A program made the position numbers and the translations under genes. Shown in pieces: positions 17,424 to 28,314 of a stretch of DNA of 28,314 bases; position 1 is the stretch's first letter; each line of letters begins with the position of its first letter. Below the pieces are notes generated by a model. That model made no database searches. It had not been told where the DNA came from and saw only the letters and a list, made by a program, of their open reading frames with translations. The stretch comes from Pseudomonadota bacterium (GTDB lineage: Bacteria; Bdellovibrionota_C; UBA2361; OMIW01), in the NCBI GenBank assembly GCA_900299205.1, contig OMIW01000101.1, positions 1 to 28,314 of the forward strand, in the 5' to 3' direction.

Positions 17424-18575
17424 ATGATTGCAAGTCTTGACGGAATATCGTGGGGGCAGGGGGCGTTCGGTATTCAGACAGAGAAGGCCCGCCTTCTCGC
17501 CACTGGCCGGGTGGTGTGTGACCTTTCTATGGTCAATCCCGATATTCCTCCGCCCCGTTTTCTGATCGATAAATTATGCGAGGCCTCTGTGAAGGGGGTG
17601 AATCATCGCTACGCGGTGTCGCGGGGGGTACGAAAGCTGCGCGAGGCCCTGACTGACCGATATCATCATTCGTTTGGTGTTTCTCTCTCACCCGAAAGCG
17701 ATGTGTGTGTGACTCTCGGGAGCAAGGATGCTCTCACTCAGATAGCCCTCGTCCTTCTCAAGCCGGGGGATGAAATCCTGGTCGGTGAGCCGACGTACGC
17801 AGCTTTTCGTTTTGTCGCTGAATATGCCGGATTGGTGGTCAGGAGTTTTCCCCTGTCATATGATCAGGGGGAGATGGCAGCATCTATTGAGGCGGCGCTT
17901 GCTGCTCACCCGATACGGGCAGTCTTTCTGAACTTTCCGAATAATCCGACCGGACAGACAGTCGCGCCGGAGTTTTACCGTGCCGTCCTTGCCAGTGCAC
18001 GTCGAACTAATACCCTCGTGGTCAATGATTTTGTCTACGGGGAGATGACATATTCCGGTACTCCAGCGGTTAGCCTCCTCAAAGCTGCTGAACCGAGCGA
18101 TTCGGTGCTTGAAACCTTTAGTTTGTCGAAGGCATTCAGTGTCCCAGGATGGCGAGTTGGTGCCGTCCTGGGAGCGAGTAGATTGGTGCGGCAGATCGCC
18201 GTTGCAAAGTCTCGGGTTGATTACGGGCTCTTTTTACCGATTCAGATCGCGGCGGCTGCCGCACTTACCTCGCCCGAGCCATTCGTACGTCAGATCACTG
18301 AACAGTACCGGAATCGCGCCGAGGTACTCACGCGAGTGCTTCAGGGGGCAGGTTGGAGGGTAGTTGCTCCGGAGGCTGGTGCTTCGGTATGGGCCCAAAT
18401 ACCTGAACGGGTCCATGCTCAGGGTAGTGACGCGATTGTCAGTCGATTGGTGTCGGGTGGTCTGGTCACGACGAGCGAAACTTTTTTTGGTGCGGACCGC
18501 CGCGGATTTATCCGGTTTGCGCTGGTTGCGAGTGAGGATCGGTTGCTTCAGCTTGCGGAGGTTCTCCGTTTATGA
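17424..18575 (+). CDS. PLP-dependent class I/II aminotransferase (AlaC-like)
   Basis: A 383-residue fold-type I aminotransferase. Key residues are HRYAVSRGVRKLREAL (61-76), VTLGSKDAL (96-104), NPTG (174-177), D202 and Y205 for PLP, the Schiff-base lysine K236 in SLSKAFSVPGWRVG, R244, and the carboxylate-binding arginine in RRGFIRFAL near the end. The SRG..LREA, 'GSK' and SLSK..S.PGWR combination is that of the AlaC/YfdZ group. LL-diaminopimelate aminotransferase (DapL) is an alternative of similar length, so substrate is not settled. Its stop overlaps the ATG of the TPR gene (ATGA), indicating coupling. It is not part of the his cluster, but a HisC role has not been ruled out. Confidence 0.87.
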   Translation: MIASLDGISWGQGAFGIQTEKARLLATGRVVCDLSMVNPDIPPPRFLIDKLCEASVKGVNHRYAVSRGVRKLREALTDRYHHSFGVSLSPESDVCVTLGSKDALTQIALVLLKPGDEILVGEPTYAAFRFVAEYAGLVVRSFPLSYDQGEMAASIEAALAAHPIRAVFLNFPNNPTGQTVAPEFYRAVLASARRTNTLVVNDFVYGEMTYSGTPAVSLLKAAEPSDSVLETFSLSKAFSVPGWRVGAVLGASRLVRQIAVAKSRVDYGLFLPIQIAAAAALTSPEPFVRQITEQYRNRAEVLTRVLQGAGWRVVAPEAGASVWAQIPERVHAQGSDAIVSRLVSGGLVTTSETFFGADRRGFIRFALVASEDRLLQLAEVLRL

Positions 18576-23876: not shown

Positions 23877-23912
23877 TTGACCCAACACGCCCCTGATTGC
23901 TATCATCAGGGG
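23877..23912 (+). promoter_or_regulatory. Candidate sigma-70 promoter with overlapping palindrome for the his cluster
   Basis: TTGACC (23877-23882), an 18-nt spacer and TATCAT (23901-23906) form a good -35/-10 pair, each matching consensus at 5 of 6; TGC before the -10 makes it an extended -10. CCCCTGAT (23890-23897) and ATCAGGGG (23905-23912) make a perfect 8-bp inverted repeat with a 7-base spacer that covers the -10 box. It could be an operator for a repressor or, if transcribed, a hairpin. The hisG ATG lies about 100 bp downstream. Confidence 0.45.
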
Positions 23913-24013
23913 TCGGCGGTCATGACGCGGTTAGTCGCGCGTTTCTCGGAGCATACCCATTCGGTCGACTCTTCGTAAAGACTGTTTGCGCCAGCAATTC
24001 TTTGGTACCCACC

Positions 24014-24904
24014 ATGCCATCTCTCTCTATCGCATCCCCTCGCCCCCCTTTCCCCCTCCATCTTGGACTCCCCAAGGGTCGAATGTTTTCGGGGGTTCTA
24101 GCGTTGATGGCGGAGGCGGGTATTCAGATTCGGACCGATGACCGAACCTATCGCCCGATTGTATCGCTGCCGGGGCTCGAGGTAAAAATTCTCAAGCCGC
24201 AGAACATCGCGCAGATGCTCGAGCTTGGTTCCCGAGATATCGGTTTTGCTGGTCGTGACTGGGTTGTCGAGCTTGGTGTCGCCGTGATTGAACTGCTTGA
24301 TACGGGCCTCGATCCCGTCCGGCTCGTCGCAGCAGCCCCCTCGGAACTTTTAGTTGAAGGTGTTCTTCCGAGACGTCACCTCATCGTCGCCTCCGAGTAC
24401 GAAAATCTCTCGAAAAGTTGGCTTGCCCGAAAGGGGATTGATGCTCGCGTGATCCGGACCTACGGCGCGACCGAAGTGTTCCCCCCCGAGGATGCTGATT
24501 GTATCGTTGACAACACAGCAACCGGCTCAACACTGCGTGCGAATGGTCTCACGATTGTTGATGAATTGATGACTTCATCGACGTGTCTCTACGCGAGTCG
24601 CGCTGCGATGGAAGACCCTAATAAGCGGGCCCGGATTGAGGATATCGTCCTCCTCCTCTCAGGAGTGCTCGCCGCTCGACGGCGAGTGATGATCGAAGTC
24701 AACGTAACCCACCATTGTCTTGATGCGGTCGTGGCACTCATGCCAGCCATGAAACAAGCGACGGTATCGCCCTTGCAGAGCACCGCTGGATTTGCGGTCA
24801 AGGCGGCGGTGTTGAAGGCCGATCTTCCGCGAGTTATTCCCCTCATTAAGGCGGCAGGGGGAACCGACATCGCTGTATCAGCTCTATCGCAGATAGTTCC
24901 GTAG
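24014..24904 (+). CDS. hisG: ATP phosphoribosyltransferase, long form
   Basis: A 296-residue HisG that couples ATP and PRPP to start histidine biosynthesis. It has LGLPKGRMFSG (18-27), DIGFAGRDW (75-83) and the PRPP loop in DADCIVDNTATGSTLRANGL (160-179). Residues ~215-296 form the extra ACT-like regulatory domain of the long form, which is feedback-inhibited by histidine and does not need HisZ. Start 24014 is chosen by family length; a TTG at 23897 lies inside the promoter palindrome and would add 39 unconserved residues. No strong ribosome binding site is seen. It heads the his cluster, followed after 89 bp by hisB. Confidence 0.93.
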   Translation: MPSLSIASPRPPFPLHLGLPKGRMFSGVLALMAEAGIQIRTDDRTYRPIVSLPGLEVKILKPQNIAQMLELGSRDIGFAGRDWVVELGVAVIELLDTGLDPVRLVAAAPSELLVEGVLPRRHLIVASEYENLSKSWLARKGIDARVIRTYGATEVFPPEDADCIVDNTATGSTLRANGLTIVDELMTSSTCLYASRAAMEDPNKRARIEDIVLLLSGVLAARRRVMIEVNVTHHCLDAVVALMPAMKQATVSPLQSTAGFAVKAAVLKADLPRVIPLIKAAGGTDIAVSALSQIVP

Positions 24905-24993
24905 GAGACGTCGGTTGGATTGTTTTGGTCGGATAGTCGCCGTTCAAAACATCGGGAGAAACTGGTCCTCGAATTAAAATCGGAGAATGAGTC

Positions 24994-25602
24994 ATGGCAA
25001 GTGCCGAGCAGCAGCAACCAGTTCGTGAGGGACGGGTATCACGAAAGACAAATGAGACCGATGTGCAGGTCGCAGTCGCTCTCGATGGTAGCGGCCAGAT
25101 TTCGGTAAAGACCGGCCTTGCGTTCCTCGATCACCTCATCACTTCATTTGCAACGCACGCACGGATCAATCTGCACCTGACCGCAGTGGGGGACATTGAG
25201 GTTGATGACCATCACACCGTTGAAGATGTCGGGATCGCGATGGGAGAGGCTATACGGCTCGCCGTTGGTGACCGCTCCGGCATTCGCCGGTTTGGTACGG
25301 GACATGCTCCCCTTGATGAGGCTCTCGCGCGGGTCGTTATCGACCTCTCCAACCGCCCGGGAGCGTGGACACAGCTGACTCTTCGACGTGAGCGAATCGG
25401 CGATGTATCGACCGAAAACCTGACTCACTTTTTCTTCTCGTTTGCGATTGCAGCCCGGGTTACCCTCCACGTTGATGTAATTCGGGGAGAAAACGATCAT
25501 CACAAGGTTGAAGCGGCCTTTAAGGCTCTCGCGCTTGCCTGTCGGGAAGCGTGGCAGCGGGATACGACTATTGGGGTGCCAAGCACCAAAGGGGTATTAT
25601 AG
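24994..25602 (+). CDS. hisB: Imidazoleglycerol-phosphate dehydratase
   Basis: A 202-residue dehydratase that converts imidazole-glycerol phosphate to imidazole-acetol phosphate using two manganese ions. The signature histidine/acid motifs are present: FLDHL (44-48), DDHHTVEDVGI (71-81) and ENDHHKVEA (166-174), with H145. It is the monofunctional form, without the phosphatase domain fused in E. coli HisB; a separate histidinol phosphatase must exist elsewhere. GGAG sits 8 nt before the ATG. It is spaced 89 bp from hisG and 89 bp from hisH. Confidence 0.94.
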   Translation: MASAEQQQPVREGRVSRKTNETDVQVAVALDGSGQISVKTGLAFLDHLITSFATHARINLHLTAVGDIEVDDHHTVEDVGIAMGEAIRLAVGDRSGIRRFGTGHAPLDEALARVVIDLSNRPGAWTQLTLRRERIGDVSTENLTHFFFSFAIAARVTLHVDVIRGENDHHKVEAAFKALALACREAWQRDTTIGVPSTKGVL

Positions 25603-25691
25603 GGGGTTATTATCGTTCTCATGAGACGCGCCGCACGAGAGGGCAGTAGGGGACGATTAGTGACGAATAAAGGGCGGCTCGGGGGGTTCGT

Positions 25692-26294
25692 ATGGCGAAA
25701 ACATCAGTCACGATAATCGCGACCGGGGTTGCGAATATCGCCTCAATGAGGGGCGCTTTTCACCGACTAGGGTGCGAGACAGTTCTCACACAGGAACCCG
25801 CCCGAGTTCTCGAGGATTCACTCGTTGTCCTCCCCGGCGTTGGCGCGTTTGGCGCGGGGATGGAGCGGCTTCGTGTCCTGGGGCTCGAAGGAGCAATTCG
25901 TGAGCGGGTTACCTCAGGGAGATCGCTTCTTGCCGTGTGTCTCGGATTGCAGCTGCTGTGTCGCTCGAGCGAAGAGAGTCCGGGGATAGATGGATTGTCG
26001 ATTCTTGATGGGGTCGTTGAGCGTTTTCGGACACCCGAGCGGATTCCGCAGCTCGGTTGGAACGAGGTGACAGCACCACCAGAGGCTCGATACCTCCGCT
26101 CCGGCTATGCCTATTTCGCAAACTCCTTCTGTGCCCGTTCGATAACGGGGGTCGATGTGATAGCACCCGCTACTTACGGCCACCAATTCGTCGCAGCATG
26201 CGAGCGAGGAGGTTTGCTCGCATGCCAGTTTCACCCTGAGCTCTCTGGCGCATGGGGTGCATCGCTCCTCGATCGGTGGATAGCAGGCGCGTGA
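25692..26294 (+). CDS. hisH: Imidazole glycerol phosphate synthase, glutamine amidotransferase subunit
   Basis: A 200-residue class I glutaminase that feeds ammonia to HisF. It contains the catalytic triad C83 in AVCLGLQLL, and H181 and E183 in QFHPELSG. VVLPGVGAFGAGM (45-57) and IPQLGWNEV (118-126) are typical of HisH. The usual CLGMQ reads CLGLQ. The ATG follows a GGGGGG stretch. It sits between hisB (89-bp gap) and hisF (about 124-bp gap). Confidence 0.94.
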   Translation: MAKTSVTIIATGVANIASMRGAFHRLGCETVLTQEPARVLEDSLVVLPGVGAFGAGMERLRVLGLEGAIRERVTSGRSLLAVCLGLQLLCRSSEESPGIDGLSILDGVVERFRTPERIPQLGWNEVTAPPEARYLRSGYAYFANSFCARSITGVDVIAPATYGHQFVAACERGGLLACQFHPELSGAWGASLLDRWIAGA

Positions 26295-26306
26295 GAGGAT
26301 GCGGGT

Positions 26307-26355
26307 AATCGGGCTCGATGATTCCTGTTGGACTCTGGGTACATGAGTCCCGATT
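26307..26355 (+). other. Overlapping hairpins in the hisH-hisF gap
   Basis: GGACTC (26330-26335) pairs with GAGTCC (26345-26350) in a 6-bp stem-loop. Alternatively, the same GAGTCCCGATT (26345-26355) can pair with AATCGGGCTC (26307-26316) with one bulged base. The two folds are mutually exclusive, and no T-run follows. They could be a mRNA processing or stability structure; a switch is speculative. Confidence 0.3.
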
Positions 26356-26418
26356 TCGTGAGTCTCGAAGTAGGTGAATTCTGAGCAGGAGTGAGTCTCT
26401 TTATAGCAGCGAGAAGTG

Positions 26419-27180
26419 ATGATAACAAAACGGATTATACCGTGCCTCGACATACGAGGGGGGCGGATTGTTAAAGGGGTTCAGTTCGGGAATATTAAAG
26501 ATGCCGGTAACCCTGCGGAGCGCGCAAAGCTCTATGAGGATCAGGGAGCTGATGAAATTGTTATCCTTGATATCTCTGCGACCGACGAGGAGCGACGAGC
26601 CTGTTTTTCAACGATCTCGGCGGTTCGGGCGGTTCTCTCGATTCCTTTAACGGTCGGTGGGGGAGTTCGTACCGTCGATGATGCGCGGGCACTCCTTCAG
26701 GAGGGTGCAGATAAAGTTGCGGTCAACACCGCTGCGGTGCGAAATCCTGAATTGATCAGCTTGCTGGCGGAGCAATTCGGAAGCCAGTGTGCGATTCTCG
26801 CGCTCGATGCTCGCAGCTCCGGATTGATGCCCTCAGGATACGAAGTTGTGGTGAGTTCGGGAAAGGAACCAACTGGGATTGACGCAACGACATGGGCGCG
26901 GCGAGCGGGGGAGCTTGGCATCGGCGAGATCGTTCTGACCAGTTTTGACCGTGATGGAACGGGTGCGGGATACGATATCCCCTTACTCCAGGCGATCTCT
27001 ACCTCAGTATCGGTTCCGGTCATCGCCTCGGGGGGTGCGGGGAACGTTGACGATATGGTGCAGGCGTTTGAGGCTGGAGCAGATGCGGTACTCGCGGCAT
27101 CGATATTTCACTACAATCGTTCGACCGTTACTGAGGTAAAGGCGGCGCTCGCAGCACACGGGTTGTTGATGCGGCCTTAA
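26419..27180 (+). CDS. hisF: Imidazole glycerol phosphate synthase, cyclase subunit
   Basis: A 253-residue TIM-barrel enzyme that joins ammonia to PRFAR, giving IGP and AICAR. Catalytic D11 (PCLDIRGGR) and D130 (LALDARSSG) occupy the classical HisF positions, with VGGGVRT (79-85), KVAVNTAA and DGTGAGYD (179-186). ATG 26419 follows a GTG at 26416 (GTGATG); either could be used, and GAGAAG just upstream supports the ATG. It is 111 bp before the HisA-HisI fusion. Confidence 0.94.
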   Translation: MITKRIIPCLDIRGGRIVKGVQFGNIKDAGNPAERAKLYEDQGADEIVILDISATDEERRACFSTISAVRAVLSIPLTVGGGVRTVDDARALLQEGADKVAVNTAAVRNPELISLLAEQFGSQCAILALDARSSGLMPSGYEVVVSSGKEPTGIDATTWARRAGELGIGEIVLTSFDRDGTGAGYDIPLLQAISTSVSVPVIASGGAGNVDDMVQAFEAGADAVLAASIFHYNRSTVTEVKAALAAHGLLMRP

Positions 27181-27291
27181 GCGCCAGGCCGAGAGAGTCA
27201 ACGTAGTGACCTTATCTAAAATCAGCGAGTTCTATTTTGCGTTTTTTAACCTTCTGAGACGCCATCCAATTTTTTATCAGACGAGTATCCG

Positions 27292-28314
27292 ATGATTATT
27301 CCATCAATAGACCTCCTCGGTGGGCAGACCGTGCAGTTAATTGGGGGAAAAGAGCATGCCCTTGATCTTGGGGACCCCTTGCCCTACCTCGAGGAGTTTA
27401 GACTTTTCGGAGAGACAGCCGTCGTTGATCTTGATGCTGCGCTTCGTCAGGGTGATAACGAGCGGCTTATTCTCTCCCTCATTGAACGGGGACCCTGTCG
27501 GGTGGGTGGGGGGATTCGCTCGGTTGATCGAGGGTTGTTCTGGCTTAACAATGGTGCCGATAAGATCGTTCTCGGTACCGCAGCCACCCCCGAGGTCTTG
27601 AGCAAGTTCCCCCGCGAGCGAGTTGTGGCTGCGCTCGATGCTAAGGAGGGCGAGGTCGTCATCGATGGATGGCGGGTGGGAACTGGTCGAACGGTGGAAG
27701 AGCGTATCGCTGAGCTCCGTCCGTATGCGGCGCATTTTCTCGTGACCTTTGTGGAATCAGAAGGTCGGCTACAGGGGTTAAACCTTGAACGGGCGAGAGC
27801 AATCGTCGCTGCAGCGGGGGAGGATAGTCGGGTAACAATTGCGGGTGGGGTTACGACGCTCGCCGATGTTCACGCTCTCGATGCGATGGGTGCGGATGCT
27901 CAGGTAGGGATGGCACTCTACACTAAGCGGTTCACCGTCGCCGAAGCGGTAGCAGCGTGTCTGACAAGTGATCGCCCCGATGGTCTCTGGCCGACGATTG
28001 TCTGCGATGAGGGGGGACGGGCGCTTGGACTGACCTACTCTAATCAAGAGAGCTTGTCCCGCGCTACTGAGCTCCGTCAGGGGGTCTATTGGTCCCGAAA
28101 GCGGGGGTTATGGCACAAAGGGGCGAGCTCGGGCGCGACGCAAACGCTGCTCCGAGTGTCGGTCGATTGCGACAGGGATTGCCTCCGGTTCCTCGTGCGC
28201 CAACAGGGTGACGGATTCTGTCATACAGGAGACTCGACCTGCTTTGGCCCATTAGCGGGGCTCTCAGCGCTCGAGAGGCGGCTTAGTGCGCGGCTAAGGG
28301 AAGACAGCGCAGTA
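27292..28314 (+). CDS. HisA-HisI fusion (probably HisA-HisIE), partial at window end
   Basis: The reading frame starts at ATG 27292 and stays open to the last base (341 codons), with no stop inside. Residues 1-225 are HisA-like (ProFAR isomerase): IIPSIDLLGG (D7), VVDLDAAL (45-52), VGGGIR (71-76), ALD with D116, VIDGWRVGTG and the phosphate-binding TIAGGVTT (182-189). Residues ~232-318 are HisI (phosphoribosyl-AMP cyclohydrolase): YWSRKRGLWHKGASSG, DCDRDC with D292, D294 and D296, then C310 in FCHTG and C317. From 319 on, LAGLSALERRLSARLRE looks like the start of HisE. One chain would thus catalyse two, perhaps three, steps. The 3' end is outside the window. Confidence 0.88.
   Translation, partial: MIIPSIDLLGGQTVQLIGGKEHALDLGDPLPYLEEFRLFGETAVVDLDAALRQGDNERLILSLIERGPCRVGGGIRSVDRGLFWLNNGADKIVLGTAATPEVLSKFPRERVVAALDAKEGEVVIDGWRVGTGRTVEERIAELRPYAAHFLVTFVESEGRLQGLNLERARAIVAAAGEDSRVTIAGGVTTLADVHALDAMGADAQVGMALYTKRFTVAEAVAACLTSDRPDGLWPTIVCDEGGRALGLTYSNQESLSRATELRQGVYWSRKRGLWHKGASSGATQTLLRVSVDCDRDCLRFLVRQQGDGFCHTGDSTCFGPLAGLSALERRLSARLREDSAV

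Follow-up and report, generated by a model that had tools for sequence, protein, structure and literature searches.

The histidine operon and the gene at the contig end

The window, a stretch of 28,314 nucleotides that corresponds to the entire contig C101 of a genome assembled in 206 contigs (~90% complete), carries a series of histidine biosynthesis (his) genes towards its 3' end:

23897..24904, + strand: hisG, long form, with the C-terminal regulatory domain (Pfam HisG and HisG_C)
24994..25602, + strand: hisB, IGP dehydratase (Pfam IGPD, E 7.1e-57)
25692..26294, + strand: hisH (from its translation; as the hisH query, it retrieves a gene from the corresponding position in relatives' operons)
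26416..27180, + strand: hisF, a separate gene directly upstream of hisAIE (Pfam His_biosynth, E 6.9e-77)
27292..27963, + strand: hisAIE, HisA domain (ProFAR isomerase, TIM barrel), residues 1–224 (Pfam His_biosynth at 1–215, residue survey and single-clade tree)
27964..28248, + strand: hisAIE, HisI domain (PR-AMP cyclohydrolase), residues 225–319 (Pfam PRA-CH, profile abutment and invariant metal residues)
28249..28314, + strand: hisAIE, HisI-HisE connecting stretch, residues 320–341 (110-bp contig overlap; the chain goes on at contig C143, L003:111-368, with HisE and a stop)

The gene order is hisG, hisB, hisH, hisF and hisAIE, followed on C143 by hisD (PF00815, E 6.5e-127), a separate gene that starts 93 bp past the hisAIE stop and occupies the same place as in relatives. 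Unlike most relatives, positions 23897–28314 hold no hisC between hisG and hisB. The window also contains, at 17424–18575, a class I/II aminotransferase gene.

The last gene, 27292..28314 (+), is an ATG-started ORF of 341 aa that, as the original prediction stated, has no stop at the 3' end of the window and leads in one unbroken frame from a HisA barrel into a complete HisI. A HisE domain and a stop had been anticipated past position 28314, and both are present on C143, a contig of the same genome whose positions 1–110 match the last 110 bp of C101 at 97%, with three substitutions and no indels. Across this overlap, the encoded peptides are identical except for one Leu/Ile position. C143 adds 85 in-frame codons and then TAA, so that the joined frame, rebuilt from two contigs over an overlap with three mismatches, comprises 426 codons up to TAA with no internal stops, while the remaining five frames of the join reach at most 140 codons. 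C101 probably ends here because strain variation interrupted the assembly.

Domains and active sites

The domain search proposed earlier for this chain matched all three families: His_biosynth (E 2.7e-38, covering profile positions 1–228 of 228) and PRA-CH (residues 247–318, E 8.6e-26) on C101, and PRA-PH (PF01503, E 1e-15) in the HisE part on C143. The HisA and HisI profiles abut within about one residue, leaving practically no linker between them.

The HisI metal residues D292, C293, D294, D296, C310, H311 and C317 are invariant in all 55 fused chains surveyed, and the D292-C-D294-x-D296 site, C310 and C317 carry exactly the numbering given in the original prediction. The DCDxD metal site and the two downstream cysteines are likewise invariant in 20 separate HisI sequences. 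The acidic motif of HisE, EExxE...ExxD (E366, E367, E370, E383 and D386), is kept in the fused chains with rare exceptions. In the HisA domain, the phosphate-binding glycines are kept and D7, D116 and T152 are invariant (54/54 fused chains), D7 being the N-terminal catalytic Asp. Position 157, after strand 6, is Glu in the window member; from the alignment and established knowledge of HisA, we equate it with Asp176 of the Salmonella enzyme, the customary catalytic acid. Glu occupies position 157 in 53 of 54 fused chains, compared with 5 of 22 separate HisA sequences, the other 17 having Asp. Judged from these alignments, each of the three domains retains its catalytic residues, and the conservative Asp-to-Glu change in the fused HisA is a clade marker and an oddity rather than a sign of lost function.

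The HisA part falls under the NCBIfam equivalog cut-offs for HisA, with 142.7 against 243 bits for PRK13585 and 135.1 against 229 bits for TIGR00007, these cut-offs being annotation thresholds and not biochemical features. The low scores may reflect divergence, and in terms of sequence, the region is a HisA-type domain within a fused chain rather than a standard HisA equivalog. It resembles the HisA and PriA proteins (Salmonella 5a5w, Mycobacterium tuberculosis PriA 3zs4) in its TIM barrel, its key catalytic Asp and Thr residues and an identity of 25–28%, but differs from them in that its C-terminus passes straight into HisI and in the Glu at the catalytic acid position.

The best PDB sequence matches of this domain are PriA proteins, which, together with the Glu in place of the usual catalytic Asp, raises the alternative that it has ceased to be a ProFAR isomerase and has either degenerated into a scaffold or become a PriA-like HisA/TrpF enzyme. 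However, the Glu is shared with the five separate HisA proteins mentioned above, and the catalytic residues and phosphate-binding glycines are kept. Moreover, the His_biosynth profile search of the window genome (~90% complete) returned only two matches above the cut-off, hisF and the fused gene, and no separate HisA. A PriA role appears unlikely because the genome has a separate trpF gene (on contig C206; PF00697, E 3.4e-32), unlike the state expected of PriA hosts. Taken as a whole, we regard this alternative as very improbable and favour a functional HisA domain.

The only HisI in the window genome is that of the fused gene, and in 15 other named genomes tested, there was also one HisI each, always the fused one. 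The cell thus appears to depend on the fused chain, a conclusion that is strong but not absolute because the window genome is incomplete.

Distribution and origin of the fused gene

At least 35 distinct full-length HisA-HisI-HisE homologues were found in independent assemblies, in agreement with the proposal that HisE belongs to the same chain. Relatives, mostly full-length, are encoded at 31 loci of named public genomes, and all three Pfam domains were detected in each of the seven full-length homologues first scanned. Within the phylum of the window, the fused gene is present in 8 of 45 genomes, in one of which it is truncated after HisI; others have separate HisA and HisIE. A full-length homologue is encoded in the complete chromosome of an isolate, Planctomycetes bacterium Poly30 (CP036434.1, L029), and about 20 fused genes were found in the 246 genomes drawn from its phylum, several on large single contigs. 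Bins labelled, with taxa as given, Sumerlaeota, Polyangiaceae, Acidimicrobiales, Acidobacteria, Alphaproteobacteria, Spirochaetae and Euryarchaeota also contribute to the 31 loci. At most of the named loci, the genes run hisG-hisC-hisB-hisH-hisF-hisAIE-hisD; in the Acidimicrobiales records, no other his genes were detected near the fused gene.

In the HisI(E) tree, all HisA-fused chains form one clade (SH-aLRT 97), as do all fused HisA domains in the HisA tree (SH-aLRT 99), both trees coming from quick searches in which the fine branching is weak. Both fused clades stand apart from E. coli and from the unfused genes found in the order to which the window belongs. A single putative fusion event with later transfer between phyla fits these trees best. 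L101, considered as an unfused member of the fused HisA clade, was discarded, since its match reaches the first base of the contig and the gene is merely cut off.

Two genomes of the Poly30 phylum encode HisA-HisI chains that belong to the fused clade but stop after HisI and have no HisE domain (L082:961-2451, + strand; L083:1381-2406, - strand). These chains offer a precedent for the alternative that the original prediction itself named, a HisA-HisI chain with HisE as a separate gene. Here, however, C143 runs in frame into the PRA-PH domain, and the one other PRA-PH match in the window genome barely exceeds the cut-off (22.8 against 21.3 bits). This alternative is very improbable, being ruled out for the window genome by the C143 continuation, and the three-domain chain is the reading retained. 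That a chimeric contig or missed frameshift joined separate hisA and hisIE genes, the other outcome foreseen, is hardly credible: the contig does end within the gene and the continuation overlap has three mismatches, but the HisA-HisI joint sits within one contig and recurs in dozens of independent assemblies, the mismatches alter a single residue, hisD follows in its usual place, and the complete Poly30 genome refutes an artefact in general.

Other fusions of his genes were observed during the survey. In genome G150, L084:1036-2193 (- strand) encodes a HisF-HisI fusion of 386 aa that falls outside the HisAIE clade and, on this tree placement, arose independently of it. Two loci in genomes of the window's order, L012:155-1564 (+ strand) and L013:1175-2539 (- strand), each join HisG (including HisG_C) to HisI within a single open frame, with Pfam HisG, HisG_C and PRA-CH all above the cut-off, so that steps 1 and 3 are fused. 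In genome G006, HisH and HisF share a 495-aa frame (GATase and His_biosynth; L021:1432-2916, - strand) that adjoins HisAIE and resembles eukaryotic HIS7. At L042:3126-6320 (+ strand), a single frame without stops spans HisA-HisI-HisE and the first part of HisD, and the HisA-HisI and HisE-HisD junctions carry similar repeat-like sequence (HRDT...). This was not counted as a HisAIED fusion, as the stretch separating HisE from HisD resembles spacer read-through and the hisD frame is broken at about residue 905.

Comparison with known systems

The C-terminal part of the architecture is that of the bacterial and plant HisIE enzymes (E. coli HisI, Shigella 6j22, Medicago HISN2 7bgm), with the same HisI-HisE order, metal ligands, both folds and steps 2 and 3. 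Unlike in HisIE, a HisA barrel precedes HisI, and the fused HisI(E) sequences form their own clade apart from those of E. coli and the other separate HisIE sampled. Fungal HIS4 (HisI-HisE-HisD) is also a trifunctional histidine enzyme built on HisIE, but its partner is a C-terminal HisD, which catalyses the last steps, instead of an N-terminal HisA.

The original prediction considered the fusion unusual, which is a fair remark, although the architecture is already in the literature. Chains of PRA-PH, PRA-CH and ProFAR isomerase were mentioned for some Gammaproteobacteria and Spirochaetia (PMC8102479), and 'HisA/F fusions with HisIE' for four archaeal metagenome assemblies (PMC11237513), each in one sentence and without a test. 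As described there, these chains have the same three activities or domains as HisAIE. The fusions named in papers about histidine gene evolution are HisIE, HisNB, HisHF and HIS4, and not HisA-HisI-HisE (PMC1963479, PMC8305728), which is also absent from the five his fusions listed by Fani et al. in 2007 (PMC1963479). No experimental study of such a fusion was found in the open literature searched, most subscription papers being outside its scope. The architecture is, therefore, known though uncharacterised, and the window chain is a further example of it.

Structure and proposed function

A confident AlphaFold model of the Poly30 homologue (pLDDT 88, pTM 0.82) places its barrel on Salmonella HisA with a Z score of 28.7 and 1.8 Å over 225 residues; in Foldseek, the C-terminal part is matched by Shigella HisIE (6j22/6j2l) and plant HISN2. 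The HisIE fold rests on the Foldseek matches because those from VIA-align cover mainly the HisA part (residues 1–305).

HisE, HisI and HisA catalyse the consecutive steps 2, 3 and 4 of histidine biosynthesis, from PR-ATP to PR-AMP, ProFAR and PRFAR. The fused gene very probably encodes a trifunctional HisA-HisI-HisE histidine-biosynthesis enzyme of about 426 residues, as its domains and conserved residues suggest. We infer its three activities, which very probably serve three consecutive steps; the earlier description of these as non-adjacent in order was mistaken, the pathway order being simply inverted in the arrangement of the domains. The C-terminal HisE would hydrolyse PR-ATP to PR-AMP, the metal-dependent HisI in the middle would open the adenine ring to give ProFAR, and the N-terminal HisA barrel would isomerise ProFAR to PRFAR for HisHF, with the hisF gene next door.

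By analogy with HISN2, a chain-swapped dimer (PMC8102479), the fused chain is probably active as a homodimer in which the HisI and HisE folds would be completed by the partner chain, with one HisA barrel hung on each side. A single chain would provide equal amounts of three consecutive enzymes, and the fusion may favour the hand-over of PR-AMP and ProFAR by proximity. The HisIE of Acinetobacter, which lacks a tunnel, transfers PR-AMP preferentially through proximity, and the authors of that study cautioned that fusion by itself is no guarantee of channelling (PMC10242683). In light of both points, channelling of ProFAR to HisA is plausible but unproven. More tentatively, HisAIE could be an enzyme with three sites that arose once, spread horizontally and hands PR-AMP and ProFAR along one homodimer, the near-linkerless HisA-HisI joint setting the barrel mouth near the HisI site; we hold this fuller picture as possible, though doubtful.

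Where an annotation pipeline names the fused gene after a single domain, hisA or hisI could be falsely listed as absent. The HisA part of the fused chains constitutes a distinct Glu-containing branch, and a widespread fusion of steps 2–4 with a single origin would offer a natural system in which to ask whether fusing consecutive enzymes speeds the transfer of intermediates.
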